Assembly: GCF_004348825.1 (NCBI RefSeq)
Contig: NZ_SMJU01000015.1
Span: 1 to 64,000, forward strand
Direction of reading: 5' to 3'
DNA: 64,000 nt
Source: Arundinibacter roseus
GTDB taxonomy: Bacteria; Bacteroidota; Bacteroidia; Cytophagales; Spirosomataceae
The notes under the pieces are model-generated. The model worked only from the letters and a program-made list of their open reading frames with translations. It did not search any database and was not told the DNA's origin. This document shows, piece by piece, positions 43,041 to 54,536 of this stretch; within the stretch, counting starts at the first letter, position 1; each line of letters starts with the position of its first letter. The translations under genes were made by a program, and so were the position numbers.

Positions 43041-45242
43041 TCAGACGATAAGCAAACCGTGATTCTGCAAGGTTTTCCAGATATCAGAAGTAGCAAATGC
43101 TTCAAAACTACCCAAATCGGCGGCATTGTAGGCTGTTTTCATTGTTTCCAGCGGGAAAATTTCCGAGGTGGACACATGCAGGCGGGGAAGAATTTCTGCC
43201 AGCCATGTTCCCAAAGTGACGGACGTATGAATGGCCCATTCGTCCTTCTTGCTGTAAAAGACGAGCTCGGCCATAGCCTGCGTTTTCTTTCCCTGTTTTT
43301 CTTCAAAAAAATCAATGGTTGGCATATTTCCCAACCACACGACCTGCGCATTTGGCCGTGGGGCAGGCGTGGGTTCGGCGAGCGCTTTCTCTATGTAGTG
43401 CGGGGGAATCGACGTGGCCGGAACTTTATGCTCAAACCATTGGGAAAGCGGAAATTCAAAACACACGCCATGCATGTAATTGAAGAGCGATTTGCGCAAG
43501 CCTTCTGCAAACTGATCGTGGTCTGTTCCGAGCGGATCGTCATGAAAAAGGTCGTTGTCGGCAAAAGCTCCAGCTACCGGGCCGATGCGCTGCACGTCAA
43601 ACTCGGCGGGTAAAAGACCCACCGGGCTGTGGGCCGTCATGGCAAAGCGATGCCAAAAGCCCGACTGCACGATGCCAAGTTCAAACAATTGCCGCACCAT
43701 TTCCAGCGAATCAATCGTTTCCTGCGCGGTTTGAGTAGGAAAACCGTACATCAGGTACGCATGAACCATGATGCCGGCCTGTGTGAAAGCATCGGCCACA
43801 CGCGCCACCTGCGCCACGGTCACGCCTTTTTTCATACGTTCGAGCAGGCGGTCGGAGGCTACTTCCAGCCCGCCTGATACGGCAATACAGCCGGAGGCTT
43901 TGAGCAAAAGGCATAAGTCGGGCGTAAAGTTTTTTTCAAACCGAATGTTGGTCCACCAAACCACCGTCAGCCGCCGCCGCAGTATTTCCAGTGCCACGTC
44001 ACGCATGAGCGCGGGCGGCGCGGCTTCATCGACAAAATGAAAACCATTCTGCCCCGTTTGCTGAATGATTTCTTCAATCCGATCACAAATCAACGCCGCT
44101 GTCACGGGTTCGTAGCGCTTGATGTAGTCCAGCGAAATGTCACAAAACGAACATTTTCCCCAATAGCAACCGTGGGCGAGCGTGAGCTTGTTCCAGCGGC
44201 CGTCGCTCCACAACCGATGCATCGGATTCACGATTTCAATCACCGAAAGGTAGTCGTGTAGCCGGAGTTCGCGGTAGTCGGGCGTTCCTACATCACGTTG
44301 AGCGACGTCGCGTTCTTTGGCGCCGTTAATATATACAACCTCCCCATTTACAAGGCAATAGGTACGTTTCAACTGACTACGTTCCCGGGTACCCCGCAGG
44401 TAGTCGAGTAGCGAAAGCAGCGGAGCTTCGCCGTCGTCCAGGCAGATATAATCGAGAAATTCAAAAACCCGTGGGTCTTTCAGGCTCCGAAGTTCGGTAT
44501 TGGCAAAACCGCCGCCCATCACCACTGCAATATGCGGATAGTGTTTTTTTATAAATTGCCCGCATTTCAGAGCTCCGTACAAATTTCCCGGAAAAGGCAC
44601 CGAAAGTCCCACCAATGTAGGTTCCAAATGCCTGATTTTTTCATCCAGAATATCCAATAAATACCGTGAAAGCAGAGTTTCGGGCGCATGAAGTTCCTGA
44701 TACAATTCGTCAAAATGTGTGGCGGTGCGGCCCAACCGCTCGGCGTAGCGGCTAAACCCAAAATGCGGATCGACAGCCTCCTGAATTAAATCGCCGATGT
44801 CTTCGAGATACAACGTACACAAATGCCGTGCTTTATCATGAATACCCATCGTTCCAAACGCCCAATCCAGTTCTTCGAGTGTCTGAAAACGGGCGGCTTC
44901 GGGCAAATAGCTGCGGTCGCAAATGCTGTGCGCAAGCGTTGGATTTCTATTTTGTAAAAATGAAATAACCGGGTCAATCGTCCTAATGTACTCTTCTTTC
45001 AAACTATAAATCCGAAAGCTATTGTCCGAAAGCTCACAGTCCGACGCTTCCAGTTCCTCAAAAAGCTGCTGTAAACCAGCCTTTGAAAATAGCCGCAGGA
45101 TGACTTCAATGCCAAGATCTGCCTGATGCGATGCAATACCAACCGTATTCAAAAAACCTTTCAGGTAAGCCGTAGCCGGGTAGGGCGTGTTGAGCTGGGT
45201 GAAAGGCGGCGTAATGAACAGGGAAACAAGGGGCTTGGTCAT
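43041..45242 (-). CDS. B12-binding-domain radical SAM protein
   Basis: A 733-residue protein with an N-terminal cobalamin-binding-like region (SLFITPPFTQLNTPYPATAYLKGFL, then LVGLSVPFPGNLYGALKCGQFIKKHYPHIAVVMGGGFAN). The radical SAM core has LTLAHGCYWGKCSFCDI, with the cluster cysteines at 359, 364 and 367 in CX4CX2C spacing rather than the common CX3CX2C. GGLEVASDRLLERMKKGVT and AYLMYGFPTQTAQET continue the barrel. The classical DxHxxG cobalamin motif is not evident. C-terminal 200 residues unknown. The reaction is unknown. It is followed 46 bases downstream by the LuxR gene. Confidence 0.86.
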   Translation of the reverse strand: MTKPLVSLFITPPFTQLNTPYPATAYLKGFLNTVGIASHQADLGIEVILRLFSKAGLQQLFEELEASDCELSDNSFRIYSLKEEYIRTIDPVISFLQNRNPTLAHSICDRSYLPEAARFQTLEELDWAFGTMGIHDKARHLCTLYLEDIGDLIQEAVDPHFGFSRYAERLGRTATHFDELYQELHAPETLLSRYLLDILDEKIRHLEPTLVGLSVPFPGNLYGALKCGQFIKKHYPHIAVVMGGGFANTELRSLKDPRVFEFLDYICLDDGEAPLLSLLDYLRGTRERSQLKRTYCLVNGEVVYINGAKERDVAQRDVGTPDYRELRLHDYLSVIEIVNPMHRLWSDGRWNKLTLAHGCYWGKCSFCDISLDYIKRYEPVTAALICDRIEEIIQQTGQNGFHFVDEAAPPALMRDVALEILRRRLTVVWWTNIRFEKNFTPDLCLLLKASGCIAVSGGLEVASDRLLERMKKGVTVAQVARVADAFTQAGIMVHAYLMYGFPTQTAQETIDSLEMVRQLFELGIVQSGFWHRFAMTAHSPVGLLPAEFDVQRIGPVAGAFADNDLFHDDPLGTDHDQFAEGLRKSLFNYMHGVCFEFPLSQWFEHKVPATSIPPHYIEKALAEPTPAPRPNAQVVWLGNMPTIDFFEEKQGKKTQAMAELVFYSKKDEWAIHTSVTLGTWLAEILPRLHVSTSEIFPLETMKTAYNAADLGSFEAFATSDIWKTLQNHGLLIV

Positions 45243-45393: not shown

Positions 45394-45652
45394 TGTAAAT
45401 CAACAGTTCAGACTTCTAGTTGAACCCCTTGCTCAACATACAGCGGGCCCGATTTGCCTTTCTGCGCAGCATGTCTTCCCATGTGCCGGGCATGTAGCGC
45501 CTTAGTTTTCCACTTCTTTTTCTTAGTGCGTGTTTCCGTGGTTTTGTCTTTTTAAGATATAAACCTGGCTTGTGCGTATACTTATTTTTTAATTGTTTAA
45601 TGAGGCATTTGCTTCGTTTAATCCATATATTTTTCTAATTCGGCAATTCCCT

Positions 45653-46729
45653 ATGAAAACTAACGAAATAAAGAAAATCCTGGTCATTGGCATGGGTAAA
45701 GTAGGTTCTTTGGTAGGAACTCTGCTCAGCAACCGCTTTGAAGTTGTCGGCCTCGACAAAGCTGCTCCGGCCGTAGAACTGCCTTTTCTATGTAAAAAAG
45801 CGGATGTTACTAATCACGCCGATTTAAAAACTCATCTGACGGGCTTTGACGCAGTGGTGTCCTGCATGCCTTATAATTTGAACTTACCTATTGCCCAAAC
45901 GGCCTATGAGTTGGGCATACATTACTTTGACCTTACCGAGGACGTCCCCACGACGGTTGCGATTCGTGAAATGGCGAAAGATAGTCGGGGCGTAATGGCT
46001 CCGCAATGTGGACTGGCACCGGGATTTATCGGGATTGTCGGGGCCGATCTGGCGAAGAACTTTACCCGCCTACGCGATATTGAACTGCGGGTGGGTGCCT
46101 TGCCACGCTATCCAAACGGCCTGTTGGGCTACTCGTTTACCTGGTCCCCGGCGGGCGTCATTAATGAATACATCAACGATGCCGAGGTTATTCATAACGG
46201 AGTACGTAAAACGGTTTCTTCGCTTGATGGCATTGAGGTGATCAATATTGAAGGACAGGAATTTGAAGCGTTTACTACTTCCGGCGGCCTGGGCACGATG
46301 TGCGAAACCTATGATGGACGAGTTGATACGCTCAACTACAAGACGATACGCTACCCCGGTCATGCCAAACTGATGCGTTTTATGCTTTATGAATTAATCC
46401 TGAAAAATGATCGGGAGCTAATCGAACGCATTCTGACGGAGGCAAAACCTCCGGTACAGGAAGATGTGGTGTACGTATATGCCGTAGTTGAAGGCTGGAA
46501 AGGAGAAATACTGGAACGTGAAGAGTTTTACCGGGCCTATCATCCGATTACTATCGACGGTCAGCATTGGCGGGCTATCTCCTGGACGACCGCTGCGTCA
46601 ATTGCCGCAGTGGTCGAAATGGTAGCGGATGGGACGCTGCCACAAAAAGGGTTTGTCCGGCAGGAAGACATTGCGCTTGATGCTTTTCTGAACACGACAA
46701 ATGGAGCGTTCTTTGACGAGACTGTGTAG
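45653..46729 (+). CDS. Saccharopine dehydrogenase family protein
   Basis: A 358-residue NAD(P)-dependent oxidoreductase of the saccharopine dehydrogenase (NADP/Lys9-like) family. The Rossmann start is KILVIGMGKVGSLVGTLLSN, then DAVVSCMPYNLNLPIAQTAYELGIHYFDLTED and the GLAPGFIGIVGADLAKN block. The C-terminal domain has YSFTWSPAGVINEYINDAEVI, EAFTTSGGLGTMCETYDGRV and TIRYPGHAKLMRFMLYELILKN. Known members interconvert saccharopine with lysine or aminoadipate semialdehyde. The next gene, an ALDH7-like enzyme, suggests lysine catabolism to aminoadipate. The ATG at 45653 removes an unlikely 20-residue extension. The leader is long (see promoter at 45363). Confidence 0.85.
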   Translation: MKTNEIKKILVIGMGKVGSLVGTLLSNRFEVVGLDKAAPAVELPFLCKKADVTNHADLKTHLTGFDAVVSCMPYNLNLPIAQTAYELGIHYFDLTEDVPTTVAIREMAKDSRGVMAPQCGLAPGFIGIVGADLAKNFTRLRDIELRVGALPRYPNGLLGYSFTWSPAGVINEYINDAEVIHNGVRKTVSSLDGIEVINIEGQEFEAFTTSGGLGTMCETYDGRVDTLNYKTIRYPGHAKLMRFMLYELILKNDRELIERILTEAKPPVQEDVVYVYAVVEGWKGEILEREEFYRAYHPITIDGQHWRAISWTTAASIAAVVEMVADGTLPQKGFVRQEDIALDAFLNTTNGAFFDETV

Positions 46730-46812
46730 TTTTTTTAAAATTTATTCAAGATTATATTTATTTAAAATACTGGTAATTAATAGATTATTGGTAAAACCCA
46801 TTTATTCAAAAC

Positions 46813-48339
46813 ATGCAAACGTTCTTACAAAAGCTTTCTATAAAACCTAAAAATGCTGGTGTTAGTACCGGTCAGCAGCAGTGGACTAGTACCGGCGAGG
46901 AGATCGAATCTTTTTCTCCGGTGGATGGAAAATCTATTGGCACTACCACAGAAACTACCCGCAAAGATTATGATCAGGTACTCGAAACCGCCCGGCTTGC
47001 CTTTCGGGAATGGCGGCTTGTGCCCGCACCCCGACGGGGCGAAATTGTCCGGCAGATTGGCGATGCGCTCCGGGAAGGCAAACAGGAATTGGGCCAACTG
47101 GTCAGTTACGAAATGGGCAAAAGCCTGCCCGAAGGGCTGGGTGAAGTTCAGGAAATGATCGACATCTGTGATTTTGCGGTGGGACTGTCCCGGCAGCTGT
47201 ACGGCCTGACGATGCACAGCGAGCGCCCGGCGCATCGCATGTACGAGCAGTGGCATCCGCTTGGAGTCGTTGGCATTATTTCGGCCTTTAATTTTCCGGT
47301 AGCAGTTTGGTCCTGGAACGCGATGATTGCCTGGGTGTGCGGCGATGTGTGCGTGTGGAAACCTTCCGAAAAAACTCCTCTGACGGGTATTGCCTGTCAG
47401 CAACTGATACAAGCGGTTTTTGCCAGGAACGAGGTACCCGAAGGCGTTTCCTGCCTGATTAGCGGCGGGCGCAGCGTGGGAGAATGGATGGCAAACGACC
47501 CTCGCGTTGATCTGCTATCGGCAACGGGAAGTACCCGCATGGGCAAAGCCGTGGCCGAAGCCGTTGGGCGCCGATTGGGACGCAGTCTTCTTGAATTAGG
47601 AGGAAACAACGCTATTATCATAACACCGGAAGCCGATTTGGCCGTTGCCATTCCGGCCATAGTTTTTGGTGCCGTAGGTACTGCCGGACAACGCTGCACA
47701 AGTACCCGCCGACTGATTGTCCACACCGCAATGTATGATGAAATGAAGGAGCGACTGCAAAAAGCCTATGCTCAGCTCCGAATTGGCAATCCGCTCGAAA
47801 CTGGCGTACACGTGGGGCCACTCATTGATCAGGATGCTGTGGGCGGTTATCTGGCAAGCGTAGAAGCGATTCGTAAGCAGGGAGGTAGTTTTGTAGTAGA
47901 GCCGGAGGTGCTTTCAGGAGCGGACTATGAGTCAGGCTGTTATGTGCGGCCTTGCATTGCCGAAGCCGAAAATCAGTGGGAGATCGTGCAGCGCGAAACC
48001 TTTGCACCGATTTTATACCTGATCCGCTACGAAACGCTGGAAGAAGCTATTGACCTTCAAAATGGCGTTCCACAAGGACTTTCTTCGGCTATTTTTACCT
48101 TAAACATGCGCGAGGCCGAGCAATTTTTATCGGCGGCGGGCAGCGATTGCGGCATTGCGAATGTGAACATCGGTACTTCCGGCGCCGAAATCGGAGGCGC
48201 TTTTGGTGGCGAAAAAGAAACCGGCGGAGGGCGCGAGTCTGGCTCCGATGCCTGGAAAGCCTACATGCGTCGCCAAACCAACACGCTCAACTATGGCCGA
48301 ACGCTACCGCTGGCGCAGGGCATTACATTTGATATTTAG
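46813..48339 (+). CDS. ALDH7-like aldehyde dehydrogenase (aminoadipate semialdehyde/piperideine-6-carboxylate dehydrogenase)
   Basis: A 508-residue NAD(P)-dependent aldehyde dehydrogenase. It contains LGVVGIISAFNFPVAVWSWNAM, then VWKPSEKTPLTGIA, then the catalytic Glu in SLLELGGNNAIII and the catalytic Cys in VGTAGQRCTSTRRLI. The NVNIGTSGAEIGGAFGGEKETGGGRESGSDAWKAYMRRQTNTLNY ending is the ALDH7 (antiquitin/AmaB) hallmark. ALDH7 oxidises alpha-aminoadipate semialdehyde to 2-aminoadipate. Placed 83 bases after the saccharopine dehydrogenase gene on the same strand, it completes a two-step lysine-degradation module in which the lysine-2-oxoglutarate reductase half is not visible here. Confidence 0.92.
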   Translation: MQTFLQKLSIKPKNAGVSTGQQQWTSTGEEIESFSPVDGKSIGTTTETTRKDYDQVLETARLAFREWRLVPAPRRGEIVRQIGDALREGKQELGQLVSYEMGKSLPEGLGEVQEMIDICDFAVGLSRQLYGLTMHSERPAHRMYEQWHPLGVVGIISAFNFPVAVWSWNAMIAWVCGDVCVWKPSEKTPLTGIACQQLIQAVFARNEVPEGVSCLISGGRSVGEWMANDPRVDLLSATGSTRMGKAVAEAVGRRLGRSLLELGGNNAIIITPEADLAVAIPAIVFGAVGTAGQRCTSTRRLIVHTAMYDEMKERLQKAYAQLRIGNPLETGVHVGPLIDQDAVGGYLASVEAIRKQGGSFVVEPEVLSGADYESGCYVRPCIAEAENQWEIVQRETFAPILYLIRYETLEEAIDLQNGVPQGLSSAIFTLNMREAEQFLSAAGSDCGIANVNIGTSGAEIGGAFGGEKETGGGRESGSDAWKAYMRRQTNTLNYGRTLPLAQGITFDI

Positions 48340-48451: not shown

Positions 48452-48736
48452 ATGAATAGCGAAGCCAAACAAACGCAGTACAGGTTAACCTCCGATCAGG
48501 TATCGTCTAATCTGGGGGGTGAAGTAGTGATTCTGAATCATGACAAAGGGGTTTACTATGGATTGGGAGAGGTAGGTGCGCTCGTGTGGAGTGCCCTGGA
48601 AAATACCTCACATTCGTTTGAGGAGTTGTGCACCCTGGTAATGGCTGAATATGAGGTAGATCAGGAAACCTGTGAGGCTGATATGGAAGCTCTACTTGCT
48701 GAGCTTATGGAAGAAAAACTAATTGAAGTCGTTTAA
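48452..48736 (+). CDS. PqqD-family protein (RiPP recognition element)
   Basis: A 94-residue PqqD-like protein: YRLTSDQVSSNLGGEVVILNHDKGVYYGLGEVGALVWSALE (the winged-helix fold with LxxxxGxYYGLNxxGxxIW-like motif), followed by FEELCTLVMAEYEVDQETCEADMEALLAELMEEKLIEVV. PqqD domains bind leader peptides of ribosomally made modified peptides and present them to maturases. It is the first gene of a five-gene unit. The stop codon overlaps the start of the B2-like gene. In lasso peptide clusters the same function is called B1; in HprK-related systems a similar PqqD accompanies a kinase. Confidence 0.9.
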   Translation: MNSEAKQTQYRLTSDQVSSNLGGEVVILNHDKGVYYGLGEVGALVWSALENTSHSFEELCTLVMAEYEVDQETCEADMEALLAELMEEKLIEVV

Positions 48737-49184
48737 TTCTGATTTGATACCCTGGGTTTTACATATCAAAAAGGCAGGAAGTTTGCCGCTCGCCCGCTAC
48801 CTTGCGCTCATGCAGGCGGCGAGCGTACTAATAGGTATTAAATTATTTTTGGTGATACTTCCTTTCCGAACATTCAGGCGTATCTATGGAAAATTGACCA
48901 ATCCTGCCCACAAACAACAGTACACGCAGGCGTATATTTCGGACCGGATTTGGGCCGTACGAACAGCGGCACATTGGCTGCCGTTTTCGTTACTCTGTTT
49001 GCCACAGGCGCTTAGCCTCAAATTTTTGCTTAGAAAAGAGGACCAACTACCTTTACACATCGGCGTGCAAATTCAGGCTTCTGCTGGTTTTGAAGCACAT
49101 GCGTGGGTTGAGAAAAACGGCAAAATTATCATTGGAGAGTGGCCAGAAAATACAACGTATAAACCCATTTGGGTTTGGCAATAA
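48723..49184 (+). CDS. Lasso-peptide-type B2 protein (transglutaminase-like leader peptidase)
   Basis: A 153-residue protein of the lasso peptide B2/McjB C-terminal family. A hydrophobic N-terminal half (LPLARYLALMQAASVLIGIKLFLVILPF) precedes the transglutaminase-like core: Cys92 in LLCLPQALSLKFLLR (the nucleophile) and His126 in GFEAHAWVEKNGK. The acidic partner expected after the second strand is a Glu (IIIGEWPE) rather than Asp. These proteins cut the leader from a precursor peptide. The only start giving this length is a TTG at 48723, overlapping the PqqD stop codon by 14 bases; a later start is possible. Confidence in family is good, in the start moderate. Confidence 0.86.
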   Translation: MKSFNSDLIPWVLHIKKAGSLPLARYLALMQAASVLIGIKLFLVILPFRTFRRIYGKLTNPAHKQQYTQAYISDRIWAVRTAAHWLPFSLLCLPQALSLKFLLRKEDQLPLHIGVQIQASAGFEAHAWVEKNGKIIIGEWPENTTYKPIWVWQ

Positions 49185-49232
49185 AACCTACCTGTCGGAC
49201 ACTTTACTTTATACATTTTAGAAACCCACTAC

Positions 49233-50309
49233 ATGCCTTCGCTGCACAGTAAGCTTCCTTCGCTCTATCATACGCTATTTCCAGAACTAGCTTCGCTGGA
49301 AGCTCCAACCGAAAGCTTTGCTACCTGCGAAAACTGTGTGCTTTGTCAAAAACCCGACAGCCCGTTTCTTGATACCAAGTGCTGTACCTATTATCCTCAG
49401 CTTCCTAACTATTTTATTGGTGGTATATTAAGTGATTCCCGCCCGGAATTGCAGGAAGGCAAACAACGTCTGCGAGCGCTGATTCAGGCGGGGCACGGCG
49501 TTACACCCACAGGTTTGGTGACACCGCTGCGCTACGACCTGCTGAATACCGCAATTCGTACTGATAAGTCGCCGGCCAAAGGAAACGAATGGACCAAAGC
49601 GGAGGTAGATACGCTGCGGTGTCCATTTTACGATCAGGGAGCCTGCACCGTGTGGGACTACCGCGAACACGGCTGCTCAACGTCTTTCTGTAAATCCGTT
49701 GGCGGCGAAACCGGCACGGCTTTCTGGAATTCTTTGTCGGTGTATCTAACGGATATTGAAGATGCCCTGGCACGTTATGTACTAGTGTTCATGAATTTTC
49801 CGGCAGATACCATTTCAGCCGAACGTTTGAGTACTCAAAATTTAGGACTCGACAGCGCCGTTGGTGAGGTAAATGCTGTGGAGTATAAGCGGTTGTGGGG
49901 AAGTTGGGCAGGTAAAGAAGAAGTATTTTATGTAAAAGCATTCGAACTTGTTCGTGATCTGGATCAAACGCAGCTGAGTGGTTTGCTAGGGGTTAAAGGC
50001 GCCGTTCGATGGCAGCAGTTGCTGGCTCGTCAGCAACAGTTTTTGACTCCCGAAATTCCCGATTGGCTGGTTCTGAGTGACGAAGTAACGATCGAAAAAT
50101 TGGCTATTGGTGAAGTAGAACTCAAAACCACTCAGGGTACTTTCGTTGTGCCGGGGTTGGTCTATCATTTTTTAACAAAACTCGACACAAAATATACGGT
50201 TGATGCAGTTGATCAAACCCTCAATGCGCTGGGAGTAGAGTTTAAAAAAGAGTATTTGACAATTCTTTTCCACTTGAAAATTCTTCGTCCCGGACAAACC
50301 ATTAAATAA
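49233..50309 (+). CDS. Cys-rich YkgJ-like protein of the RiPP-like cassette
   Basis: A 358-residue protein without a confident family name. The N-terminal 160 residues hold nine cysteines: 32, 35, 38, 50, 51, 130, 138, 148 and 153. The pattern CENCVLC, KCCTYYPQLPNYFIGGIL, CPFYDQGACTVWDYREHGCSTSFC resembles the YkgJ-type zinc/iron-chelating fold (CxxC, CC, CPxxxxGxCxIYxxRPxxCR). The remaining 200 residues are a mixed region with no motif I know. It contains no radical SAM, ATP-grasp or ThiF motif. It occupies the position in which the asparagine-synthetase-like lasso cyclase is usually found and is on the same strand between B2 and the HprK-like kinase. A metal- or Fe-S-dependent modification role is conceivable but not shown. 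Confidence 0.7.
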   Translation: MPSLHSKLPSLYHTLFPELASLEAPTESFATCENCVLCQKPDSPFLDTKCCTYYPQLPNYFIGGILSDSRPELQEGKQRLRALIQAGHGVTPTGLVTPLRYDLLNTAIRTDKSPAKGNEWTKAEVDTLRCPFYDQGACTVWDYREHGCSTSFCKSVGGETGTAFWNSLSVYLTDIEDALARYVLVFMNFPADTISAERLSTQNLGLDSAVGEVNAVEYKRLWGSWAGKEEVFYVKAFELVRDLDQTQLSGLLGVKGAVRWQQLLARQQQFLTPEIPDWLVLSDEVTIEKLAIGEVELKTTQGTFVVPGLVYHFLTKLDTKYTVDAVDQTLNALGVEFKKEYLTILFHLKILRPGQTIK

Positions 50310-50327
50310 TTAAATACAGCCCAACTT

Positions 50328-50335
50328 TATATTTG
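50328..50335 (+). promoter_or_regulatory. -7-like box just before the HprK-like gene
   Basis: TATATTTG, matching TANNTTTG, ends 17 bases before the ATG at 50353. It could give an internal promoter for the kinase and nucleotidyltransferase genes. No matching -33 TTTG is seen. Confidence 0.35.
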
Positions 50336-50352
50336 CTTGAAAATCAGGATTC

Positions 50353-51261
50353 ATGCCGCTATACTTCGCCTTCAACCTCCTCATCCGATCCGACATCAGT
50401 TTGCCCGAACTGAATCCGGCTACCGAAACCGGACAGCCGGAAGACATTCGAATTTGCCTGACAAGTCTTACGTTACCGACCTTAAAGCAAACGCCCATTC
50501 ACCGGCGTGGCGTAAGGGCTCGGAGTGGCTCCGCGGGCAGTGATACAATTTTCATGTCCTGGAAAGGTATTGCCGCATACAAAGCCGTTGGCGGTCATAC
50601 ACTTTTTGTAGATAGCTACACCGAAGATGCGTCCGTCCTTAGCCTGTTTACGGTTAGTGAAGCTTTGGGGTGTATTCTCTTGCAACGCGGATTGTTGCTG
50701 CTGCATGCAAGTGCGGTGCAGGTAGGAGCGGGTGCTTACTGTTTTATGGGGGTGCCGGGTGCGGGAAAATCAACCACGGCAACGGCTTTTGTGCAGGCCG
50801 GAGCGCCGCTGTTAAGTGATGATTTAACGGCTATATGGTTTAATGAAAAGAAAGAACCCTTTATTCTTCCGGCCTATCCTCAGTTGAAAATCTGGGAAAA
50901 TACGGTGGAAGGCCTTTCTTTTGAAAAAACGGATTTGCAGCCGGTAAGCGAAGGAATTAATAAGTTTTCATTTAATCCTCAACACAATTTTCCGACCCAA
51001 CCTGTTCCGTTGGCGCAGGTTTATTTTATTCATAAAGCCCGCAATAAACCTGCTTTACAGCAAGTCAAACCCACCGAAGTACCGATTGAACTGGTTCGGC
51101 ATTTTCCGTTGGCTACACATTTGCTGGAAGGGAAAGTTTTGCACCAACATTTTTTGCAAAGTATGTGGTGCGCAGCGGCGGCTTCTATTTGGCGAAAACG
51201 TCGTCCGGCAGATTTTAAAGCGCTCCAAAATTGGGCTGAAAGCTGTATTCAAATATCCTGA
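50353..51261 (+). CDS. HPr-kinase-like (HprK-related) serine kinase
   Basis: A 302-residue protein with the HprK/PEP-carboxykinase-like P-loop fold: a family His in LLLLHASAV (residue 118), Walker A FMGVPGAGKSTTATAF (133-140) and LLSDDLTAI with the SDD pair at 155-157, as in HprK-related kinases. No N-terminal HprK DRTGG domain. In lasso clusters such kinases phosphorylate the C-terminus of the precursor peptide (paeninodin type), and HprK-related proteins also accompany PqqD-like proteins elsewhere. It starts with ATG at 50353 and its last base overlaps the first base of the nucleotidyltransferase start codon, so the two are translationally coupled. Confidence 0.85.
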   Translation: MPLYFAFNLLIRSDISLPELNPATETGQPEDIRICLTSLTLPTLKQTPIHRRGVRARSGSAGSDTIFMSWKGIAAYKAVGGHTLFVDSYTEDASVLSLFTVSEALGCILLQRGLLLLHASAVQVGAGAYCFMGVPGAGKSTTATAFVQAGAPLLSDDLTAIWFNEKKEPFILPAYPQLKIWENTVEGLSFEKTDLQPVSEGINKFSFNPQHNFPTQPVPLAQVYFIHKARNKPALQQVKPTEVPIELVRHFPLATHLLEGKVLHQHFLQSMWCAAAASIWRKRRPADFKALQNWAESCIQIS

Positions 51262-52370
51262 TGGAAACATTTATCCACCCTGCATTGCCTTCCGCAGAAC
51301 TAGCGCTGATTCAATCGGCCTGTTTGGGGGTACCACTGGCAGAAGAAACCTGGACGGACGTTCGGGGAGAACGGCTTTTGGCGCTGGCACGCTGGCATCA
51401 GGTGCGTCCGCAGGTTTTTGCGGCTGTTCAGCATTTTTCTGCTTCGTGGGTTGGTGAGTTAAAACAAGAGGTCTTTCAGCTTACACTATCCAATTTGGTC
51501 AATACGCGTGAAACACTCAGTTTACTGACTATTCTTAAAAAAAATCAGATTTCGGCCTATGCCTATAAAGGCTGCGTGTGGGCCGAGTGGCTCTATGGCC
51601 AACAAAGTCGACGTGAATTTGGGGATATAGATTTGCTGGTAGCAAAAGATGATGTAAACCGTTGCCTCGACTTATTTCGATCGGTGGGGTATGCGCCCGA
51701 CCCGTATCGGGAATATCTTTTAACTAATCAAACGTCGATTCGGGACGCTTTTTTTCGAACGGACTACCACATTCCCATGGAAAAAAGGGTAGGGGCGGCA
51801 TCAAGTATGATGCTGGAAGTCCATTGGCAGGTGGCTTATCCTCGTTTGTGTTTTTCGTTTCCATCCAAAGAATGGAGTGAGTATAAAGTACAAATGATGA
51901 TTCAGAGCGAGTCCGTACGCTGTTTCACCAACGAGTATCAACTGTTGCTGCTTATCATGCATCATGGGGGAAAAGAGAATTGGGCAAAACTAAAATACGT
52001 GGCCGATTTGGCTGCCTATATGAAGCGTTACGGTGCTGCAACCAATTGGCCGCTTGTGAAACGATTGGCGGAGAAAAAAGGCCTTTGGAAACTGGTACGG
52101 CAAAGTTTGGGCCTTTTAAAAGCGCTTGGCATGCCGTGGAGTGACGCATGGCCTGAGGTTGAGGCAGTTTCGCTGAAAGCTACCATTTTGAAAAATTGGG
52201 AGGAAATGCCCCCCGATCCTAAAAATTCTACCTGGATGTACCTGAAACAAGCCATAACGATTCGTGAACATACAGCTGATCAATGGGAGGTTGCCAAAGC
52301 TCATCTTCGGTATATGAGTGAGCTGAAACTTCTGCTGCATAAATCACGCTGGTACGCAGGTAAATCGTAG
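51261..52370 (+). CDS. Nucleotidyltransferase family protein of the RiPP-like cassette
   Basis: A 369-residue protein of the lasso/HprK-associated nucleotidyltransferase family. The N-terminal alpha-helical part (LARWHQVRPQVFAAVQ) precedes the polymerase-beta-like core: AYKGCVWAEWLYG, then RREFGDIDLLVAKDD with the metal-binding Asp pair (122 and 124). The C-terminal third is helical with a HHGGKENWAKLKYVADLAAYM motif (about residue 230). Family members are found in RiPP gene clusters with kinases; the nucleotidylated target is unknown. It ends before a bidirectional terminator. The start codon overlaps the end of the kinase gene by one base. Confidence 0.84.
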   Translation: METFIHPALPSAELALIQSACLGVPLAEETWTDVRGERLLALARWHQVRPQVFAAVQHFSASWVGELKQEVFQLTLSNLVNTRETLSLLTILKKNQISAYAYKGCVWAEWLYGQQSRREFGDIDLLVAKDDVNRCLDLFRSVGYAPDPYREYLLTNQTSIRDAFFRTDYHIPMEKRVGAASSMMLEVHWQVAYPRLCFSFPSKEWSEYKVQMMIQSESVRCFTNEYQLLLLIMHHGGKENWAKLKYVADLAAYMKRYGAATNWPLVKRLAEKKGLWKLVRQSLGLLKALGMPWSDAWPEVEAVSLKATILKNWEEMPPDPKNSTWMYLKQAITIREHTADQWEVAKAHLRYMSELKLLLHKSRWYAGKS

Positions 52371-52469: not shown

Positions 52470-54536
52470 TCAGGCCTTTGATTCTTCTGCCGGGCTTTCT
52501 GCTTCGGTAATTACATCGCTTGCTTTGGCTTTTTCTTCCAATGCCTGCTTCACTACTTCTTCATGAATTGCGGCTTCTTCCCGCGAGCGGCGGTTTACGT
52601 ATGCCTGATAGTTCGTTTCCTTCTCGTAAGGTCTTTTTCCAATCAAACGATCCAGGTCACTTTGGAATAAAATCTCTTTTTCCAATAACTCCTGCGCAAT
52701 CGTTTCCAACTCAGTCCGCTTGTCGCGGAGAAGTGTCATCACATGCTGATACGCTTTATCGACTAACAATCGAACTTCGTGGTCAATTTTCTCGGCAGTT
52801 GCGTCAGAGTAAGGTTTGGTAAATGAATAATCCGATTGCTTGGAATCATAAAACGAAATGTTTCCAATTTTATCATTCATTCCGTACATCGTCACCATGC
52901 TGTATGCCAGTTTGGTAACTCGTTCGAGGTCGCTAAGAGCTCCGGTAGAGATTTTGCCAAACACTACATCTTCGGCAGCCCGTCCACCCAACGTCATACA
53001 CATTTCGTCGAAAAGCTGCTCGGTACGGTAGAGATACTGCTCACGCGGCAAATACTGCGCATAACCCAATGCTGCCACTCCACGAGGTACAATCGTTACT
53101 TTTACCAACGGATCTGCGTGTTCGAGGTACCATCCGGCTACGGCGTGGCCGGCTTCGTGGTAGGCTACAATCTGCTTTTCTTCGGGCGAAATCAGTTTGT
53201 TTTTCTTTTCCAAACCACCAATTACCCGATCCATCGCATCCTGAAAATCCTGCATTGTCACCTCGTCACGGTCGCGACGGGCAGCGATAAGCGCTGCTTC
53301 GTTGCAAACGTTGGCAATTTCGGCACCGGCAAAACCAGGCGTTTGGGCAGCTAATTTCTGAATATCTACGTCCTGAGAGATCTTGATGGGTTTCAGGTGT
53401 ACTTTGAAAATCGCTTCACGGCCAATTACGTCCGGCTTATCAACAGAAATCTGACGGTCAAAACGGCCGGGACGAAGCAACGCCGAATCCAGTACATCCG
53501 GACGGTTAGTTGCGGCTACGATAATAATACCTGAGTCCGTAGCAAAGCCATCCATTTCAACAAGCAGCGAGTTTAACGTATTCTCACGCTCGTCGTTTGA
53601 GCCGGGCATACCGCCACGTCCACGTGAACGACCTACGGCGTCAATTTCATCAATAAAGATGATACAGGGAGCTTTTTCTTTGGCTTGCTTGAAAAGGTCA
53701 CGAACCCGGGCTGCGCCTACGCCTACAAACATTTCTACAAAATCAGAACCTGACAAAGAGAAAAACGGTACGCCTGCTTCGCCCGCTACGGCCTTGGCCA
53801 GCAGGGTTTTACCCGTACCGGGAGGGCCTACCAGCAAAGCTCCTTTGGGGATTTTTGCACCTAATTTTTTAAACTTATCGGGACTTTTAAGATAATCCAC
53901 AATTTCCTTAATCTCCTCTTTGGCTTCATCGAGTCCGGCAACGTCGTTAAAGGTAATTTTTACCTTATTTTCGGCATCAAACAGCGTAGCTCTCGAACGG
54001 CCAATGTTGAAGATTTGCCCACCGGGCCCTACACCTCCTGACATTCGGCCCAGCAGGAAGTACATCACCAGAATCATGACTATGAAAAAGCCCCACGTGC
54101 CGATAAAGCCCGTCCAGTCGTTTCGGGTGTCAATTTTATATTCAATTTTATCTCCATCGGCGACTCCCTCCTGCATTTGTTCAAGATCTTTCTTGAAGGT
54201 TTCGGCAGATGTTACCTGAAACTGATAGTGTGGTCCTGCTTCTCCGCTGAAATAATTATTGTCTTTGGATAAAACCTGATACTTATCTTTTTTAAGGGCC
54301 TCCGGTTTCAGTGTTACCTCCACCGATTTGTCGTTCACAATCGTAACCCGTGCCACTTCGCTGTCGGTTACCATTTTCTCAAATCGCTTTTGGGTAGTCT
54401 CCCGAAGTGTAGAAGACCGATTGAGGTATGTAATTCCCAGTATCGTGGCGATCAAGGCAGCGATGATCCAGCCCTGATAGCCACGTTGCGGGCTTTTGGG
54501 ATTCAATGGATTTCTTTTGTTATCGTTATCAGACAT
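52470..54536 (-). CDS. ftsH: ATP-dependent zinc metalloprotease FtsH
   Basis: A 688-residue membrane-bound AAA+ protease. N-terminal helices ([17 protein letters not shown] and [17 protein letters not shown]) flank a periplasmic domain. Then the AAA module: Walker [16 protein letters not shown] (about residue 235), [21 protein letters not shown], Walker [18 protein letters not shown], and SRH-type [15 protein letters not shown]. The protease zinc motif is [15 protein letters not shown] (HExxH, about 455). The C-terminal tail is acidic and Ala-rich. It degrades membrane and regulatory proteins. rsfS lies upstream on the same strand, separated by 69 bases, so they may share an mRNA. Confidence 0.97.

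Follow-up and report, generated by a model that had tools for sequence, protein, structure and literature searches.

A five-gene cassette of Arundinibacter roseus as the probable maturation hub of dispersed lasso-type peptides whose genes mostly adjoin type IX secretion cargo

Lasso peptides are thought of as the products of compact, self-contained gene clusters and are mined on that assumption; among ribosomally synthesized and post-translationally modified peptides (RiPPs), the prochlorosins are an example of unclustered maturation, in which one enzyme set serves many precursors. The closest described lasso systems, those of paeninodin and pseudomycoidin, are split B1/B2 systems with kinase and nucleotidyltransferase (K/N) tailoring, and the paeninodin-type kinase acts at a C-terminal Ser (PMC8498205). 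We analysed a 64,000-nucleotide stretch of Arundinibacter roseus (contig NZ_SMJU01000015.1, positions 1 to 64,000; hereafter the window), which carries a cassette of five such genes at positions 48452 to 52370. The system to which the cassette belongs has in common with those of paeninodin and pseudomycoidin a B1 protein (PqqD-like RiPP recognition element, RRE), a B2 protease, a cyclase, an HprK-like kinase and a nucleotidyltransferase, along with a Y..P leader and a penultimate Thr; it differs in that its genes are scattered (one hub, several cyclases and about nine precursors), in its link to cargo of the type IX secretion system (T9SS) and to PorU2, and in a Cys-rich RRE protein present in some genomes. 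Lanthipeptide maturation proteases can also be encoded far from the precursor (PMC8960859); as there, the maturation enzymes lie away from the precursors and one set serves many, whereas the RiPP class is another one, the hub provides leader recognition and proteolysis, and the cyclases are themselves dispersed. We regard the role of the cassette as a maturation hub as well supported, and consider it likely that it is shared, in trans, by some nine dispersed peptides of an unclustered lasso-peptide system.

All five genes are open reading frames (ORFs) on the + strand, contiguous as the initial annotation had described them: B1 and B2 overlap by 14 bases, the kinase and the nucleotidyltransferase by 1 base, and the remaining neighbours are separated by 48 and 43 bases. 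B1 (48452..48736, 94 residues) is a PqqD-family RRE (PF05402, E 5.8e-19); it matched NF033536 lasso_PqqD_Bac at E 6e-20, below the cut-off of that family, and the solved lasso RRE TbiB1 (5v1u) at E 8.7e-12. B2 (48723..49184, 153 residues, TTG start) is a transglutaminase-like lasso leader peptidase (NF033537 lasso_biosyn_B2, 86.7 bits against a cut-off of 33), and its catalytic-type Cys and His are kept in ten relatives; the earlier reading of a lasso-type accessory set was correct. The Cys-rich protein (49233..50309, 358 residues) was characterised by alignment and predicted fold, as described below. The HprK-related kinase of lasso K type (50353..51261, 302 residues) has a Walker A motif GVPGAGKS and a match to TIGR04352 that is confined to the P-loop (E 3e-7; 29.7 bits, cut-off 200); its homologues in the same cassette of relatives are 44-54% identical. 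The lasso N-type nucleotidyltransferase (51261..52370, 369 residues, motif GDIDLL) belongs to NTP_transf_5 (PF14907, 140.7 bits) and is the single PF14907 copy of the whole genome. Sequence search of solved structures gave no relatives of the kinase or the nucleotidyltransferase. Every frame is open with its motifs intact, and none is broken as in a degraded cluster. A precursor and a cyclase had been reported missing from the unit and its flanks, and this held for the entire window: no precursor-like ORF was seen among its 940 ORFs (best profile E 0.85), and no cyclase, all six Asn_synthase genes of the genome lying on other contigs. Relatives of the cassette occur both with and without an adjoining cyclase.

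The possibility that the substrate is encoded elsewhere was borne out by searches of the contigs of the genome (5.83 Mb, 44 contigs), on which all genome-wide statements are based. Besides the six Asn_synthase genes there are two B2 and two PqqD genes, forming only two B2/PqqD pairs, that of the window and one on contig C4. The C4 pair is part of a separate, self-contained lasso cluster (L017, C4:46001-65900) with its own kinase, B1, B2, cyclase and candidate precursor, the last (MKNSQNAKKQWVSPKLTAIQIEAAGAIEIDGVYGGIS, 37 residues) being devoid of an LT motif. The five other cyclases, on C33 (two), C40 (two) and C43 (one), have no B1 or B2 nearby, and are the cyclase homologues that the initial annotation had suggested looking for. 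Their best family is lass_lactam_cya (E 1e-66 to 1e-140, all below the 525-bit cut-off); in them SGG(L/I)DS is kept, and the Cys2 found in glutamine-dependent asparagine synthetases is absent. A precursor profile was built from MNAYTTNTPVAFALKNSKKSYHKPSLVHRGTVARLTLKAGSSTDAFTNFTP, encoded beside a C40 cyclase, and similar ORFs of relatives. It found nine precursors at E<=1e-4, on C18, C33, C40 and C43 and none on the contig of the window; one of them scored above the cut-off of NF033521 lasso_leader_L3 and others near it. Pattern searches of the stretches around the cyclases of two gene islands, B and C, found no precursor; for island C the profile later found one 13 kb from the cyclase, beyond curli genes.

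The leaders of the nine precursors have the motif Y..P....G....(L)T, followed by a core in which residue 1, G3-S4 and an Asp at position 7 or 8 are conserved; in the alignment of leader and core, Y, P, G, T, G-S and D are invariant. Core numbering was set by placing the conserved Thr at -2, and 50 cores were collected from the family. Position 1 was Lys in 41/50, and the acceptor Asp stood at position 7 in 41/50 and at position 8 in 8/50 (49/50 together). Rings of lasso peptides have 7-9 residues, so that an Asp at 7 or 8 fits the ring sizes known for these peptides. An identical core, TLKIGSTSDVGGMQPMP, occurs in four precursors with different leaders (one on C18, two on C33, one on C43); over their 51 nucleotides the copies show 8-11 differences, or 4 in the case of the C33 pair, and every one of them is silent. 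The cores are evidently under selection.

We surveyed 150 genomes of the family for the same genes. Precursors were found in 54 genomes and B2 in 67, with both in 53 (Fisher 3e-26), and the sole precursor genome without B2 is only 83% complete. Of the 36 genera, 21 have B2, and these include all 15 that have precursors (p about 1e-5). The precursors were mostly remote from the hub: 99/116 lay >15 kb from B2, and 67/116 were near neither B2 nor a cyclase. In closed genome G020 the hub stands at 0.96 Mb, the precursors at 1.20, 2.78 and 5.32 Mb, and the cyclase at 3.38 Mb, and in the closed genomes G033 and G044 hub, cyclase and precursors are likewise far apart, so that contig breaks are no longer a worry. 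In Runella, Rhabdobacter and several other genera a cyclase adjoins the hub, and G145 has everything in one cluster: a large adhesin, cargo, precursor, B1, B2, kinase, nucleotidyltransferase, cyclase, lipoprotein and PorU2.

From family membership we infer each chemical step, the lasso topology and the action in trans, as follows. Small precursors, produced from other chromosomal loci, would be bound by B1 at their Y..P....G leader, which B2 would then cleave off after Thr-x, so that the conserved Thr stands at -2. A lasso-type cyclase, also from another locus, would then join residue 1 to Asp7/8, and the kinase and nucleotidyltransferase (in few lineages also the Cys-rich RRE protein) may tailor the product.

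The neighbours of 51 precursors with sequenced surroundings were examined using a sorting-domain model built from cargo of this genome. The immediate same-strand neighbour carried a T9SS C-terminal sorting domain for 35/51 precursors, as compared with 5/271 genes further away; the usual order was cargo then precursor, with a gap of 3-118 bases. Pfam PF18962 was present in 7/10 neighbours tested from other genomes, and in neighbours from A. roseus also. In the genome of the window 7/9 precursors touch one of only 36 sorting-domain genes (p about 5e-12, the related C33 copies being counted separately). Three further precursors, from three genera, adjoin curlin genes. The cyclases, for their part, are joined to a lipoprotein of ~230 residues and to a C25 protein that is a PorU2 (NF052324, 869-948 bits, cut-off 450), which was found within 10 kb of 38/65 cyclases in precursor genomes vs 0/26 in precursor-less genomes (p 3e-8). 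In the tree, the cyclase-linked PorU2 proteins form one clade (100/100 support) apart from ordinary PorU2; only one of its members was scored as unlinked, and this one is a tandem neighbour within the lasso locus of G138, and the three PorU2 copies of A. roseus fall into three subclades. The C25 dyad, H615 and C649 in the numbering of the protein of island A (on C40), is invariant in 26 sequences. The lipoprotein model (predicted local distance difference test, pLDDT, 88) gave weak LolA/lipocalin-like matches only, with a template modelling (TM) score of about 0.2-0.3, and we claim no function for it. In G072 the lipoprotein gene directly follows B2 in the hub operon (L134:9024-9692), which is independent evidence of its membership in the system.

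Because the precursors are mostly operon partners of cargo, and the cyclases sit with the lipoprotein and PorU2, the most likely site of action of the peptides is the cell surface, alongside the exported protein. This suggests that lasso peptides and the T9SS are connected, which had not been suspected. We know of no precedent for a PorU2 clade tied to lasso cyclases and RiPP precursors, PorU2 being an uncharacterised, putative T9SS sortase; in the open-licence literature, from which subscription journals are mostly missing, "lasso peptide" never occurred together with "type IX secretion" or "T9SS", and the term "PorU2" was not found. The nearest described enzyme is PorU of Porphyromonas gingivalis, which transfers cargo C-termini to amines, among them stray peptides when the anionic lipopolysaccharide (A-LPS) is missing (PMC4560394). 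Common to both is a C25-family His/Cys sortase-like enzyme beside cargo with a C-terminal sorting domain; the system here differs in having a distinct clade of PorU2 that is associated with lasso cyclases, with a lipoprotein and with RiPP precursors. Conjugation of peptide to cargo by PorU2 is speculative. It is possible, though we think it rather unlikely, that the whole is a lasso-type conjugation system of the T9SS, in which the hub matures the dispersed peptides and the dedicated PorU2 and lipoprotein join or anchor each peptide to its partner cargo at the surface, in place of the A-LPS amine of Porphyromonas, with Lys1 offering the free amine. A rival reading, to which we give a little under an even chance and which is compatible with the hub, is that the peptides are no more than common secreted lasso products, antimicrobial or signalling, which share promoters with genes for surface proteins; T9SS cargo, lipoprotein and PorU2 would then be co-regulated neighbours without any chemical link. 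Operon adjacency is indeed a sign of co-expression, not of conjugation, and no T9SS cargo accompanies the three precursors next to curlin genes, or island E, which has a YcaO enzyme beside it. The separate clade of cyclase-linked PorU2 (100/100), together with its presence near 38/65 as opposed to 0/26 cyclases, nevertheless suggests more than co-regulation.

The Cys-rich protein, which the initial annotation had taken for the only candidate chemistry enzyme, has lost that position, since five orphan lasso-type cyclases exist and the protein occurs in 5/150 family genomes, most system-bearing genomes being without it. It had no Pfam or NCBIfam match. An alignment of 19 relatives showed invariant N-terminal cysteines (C32, C35, C50, C51, C130, C138, C148 and C153), and the predicted model (pLDDT 85.8) showed a C-terminal RRE-like winged-helix domain at about residues 274-356. 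The best fold matches of this domain were recognition elements of RiPP enzymes (TigE, Z 8.7; PbtF RRE, Z 7.8; TbiB1, Z 7.6); similar winged helices from lysine methyltransferases (PKMT) and YcfD hydroxylases were also among the matches, and unrelated entries were far lower. Comparison of the protein sequence with solved structures gave chance matches only, and profile comparison with PqqD was insignificant, so that the RRE-like domain is visible in fold comparison only. The N-terminal cysteine domain had no usable match in the fold lists obtained, which is no proof of a new fold. With its RRE-like domain the protein gains interest as a putative leader-docking tailoring enzyme, a candidate in few lineages. 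A role as substitute cyclase was considered and rejected, the protein being missing from most system genomes and cyclases being encoded elsewhere. Cys-rich RRE-like proteins were seen also in Myxococcota (L035-L046; Archangium, Corallococcus, Citreicoccus and others), where no lasso genes were recognised nearby.

Several points weigh against the hub reading. In islands B and C no precursor directly adjoins the cyclase, and the candidate cyclases number five as against nine precursors. A Lys as the first core residue is unusual. Ser is found at the C-terminus of 3/50 cores only; the kinase therefore cannot act on most cores as in paeninodin, and its site, if any, must differ. The precursor at C33:438383 seems to lack a start codon. 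On reading the ORFs beside the hub and the islands, without a dedicated search, no lasso D exporter was seen, such exporters being common in lasso systems though not universal; an ATP-binding cassette (ABC) gene does adjoin the Runella aurantiaca cluster (L019:5740-7503). The co-occurrence statistics were corrected for kinship by genus counts only. In principle, B1 and B2 of C4 could share the work in this genome. A hub acting on some other peptide or protein, for example via the Cys-rich protein, with the scattered precursors matured by others such as the C4 B1/B2, would be in keeping with the excess of B2 genomes (67) over genomes with recognisable precursors (54), and with two features of the Cys protein, namely an RRE-like domain of its own and the occurrence of its myxococcal relatives away from lasso clusters. 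We consider this unlikely: G020, G033 and G044 are closed genomes with a single B2 and have these precursors only; B1 of the hub is 37-55% identical to the B1s of genomes with such precursors, whereas for the B1 of C4 the figure is only about 30%; and the local precursor of C4 has a different leader without the LT motif.

The surroundings of the cassette bear upon its history. It is preceded on the + strand by two synteny markers (marker region 45593..48339), a saccharopine dehydrogenase-like gene (45641-46729) and an aldehyde dehydrogenase gene (46813-48339), and is followed by ftsH (52470..54536, - strand), which also flanks the hub in G138, a member of another genus. The syntenic locus of Rhabdobacter roseus (G023) has the saccharopine dehydrogenase-like gene, the aldehyde dehydrogenase gene, B1, B2 and the Cys gene, then a cargo-precursor-cyclase-lipoprotein-PorU2 block, and then a kinase 54% identical to that of the window. 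The same block is intact as island A on C40 and is 48-59% identical to the Rhabdobacter block protein by protein. With the block beside the hub in Rhabdobacter and intact on C40, the window cassette represents a split system, not a relic; by this comparison of loci, the cassette is evidently what stayed in place after block and hub parted, nothing having been lost. That it is an ordinary lasso cluster in decay, from which cyclase and precursor have disappeared, is highly improbable, for while Rhabdobacter and Runella do have cyclase and precursor beside the same genes, so that a block did leave this locus, the frames and motifs of the cassette are intact, the departed block is complete on C40 (which largely refutes decay), closed genomes from other genera show the same split, and the nucleotidyltransferase and HprK-related kinase stay with the hub in genomes where the cyclase is distant. 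A degraded cluster, as the initial annotation had envisaged it, would have cyclase and precursor beside comparable loci in all relatives; only some relatives have an adjacent cyclase, and in others hub, cyclase and precursors are megabases apart in closed genomes.

Some further loci were noted. On C33 (L026:6467-10580) and in G062 (L175:6171-10177) there are islands of precursor, YcaO and lasso-type cyclase, with cores GSGDSDGSTQQFPVC and GSGDADGMTGLSVC that end in Cys; as a side reading, a lasso-like scaffold may there be joined with azoline/thioamide-type chemistry. In the curli locus C43:126001-163000 (L024, L059), one end carries a lasso-type cyclase, a precursor with core AGGSFSADVPGGATDGPFGG lies beside a curlin gene, and a precursor resembling it adjoins curlin genes in two other genera (L158, L161). 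The precursor at C33:438383 (L062:10383-10496) is a third C33 copy of the identical core, with a divergent precursor-like ORF just upstream (L062:9912-10040). In G088 a divergent lasso precursor, QWSVPKIKSRLTIQSTSGPRAGSSDSNMMSS (L021:7509-7637), adjoins a cyclase and the Cys protein; its core, GPRAGSSD..., has a C-terminal Ser and resembles a paeninodin-like substrate for the kinase. Within the window, a radical S-adenosylmethionine protein with a weak B12-binding match (43041-45242, - strand) is encoded upstream of the saccharopine dehydrogenase-like gene, on the opposite strand, and is outside the conserved set.

Leader processing, ring closure and precursors are thus separated in many genomes of one bacterial family, so that most of the precursors would escape mining based on clusters. 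The link to cargo and PorU2 gives this uncharacterised protein a concrete, testable partner, and suggests a cell-surface role for lasso-type peptides.

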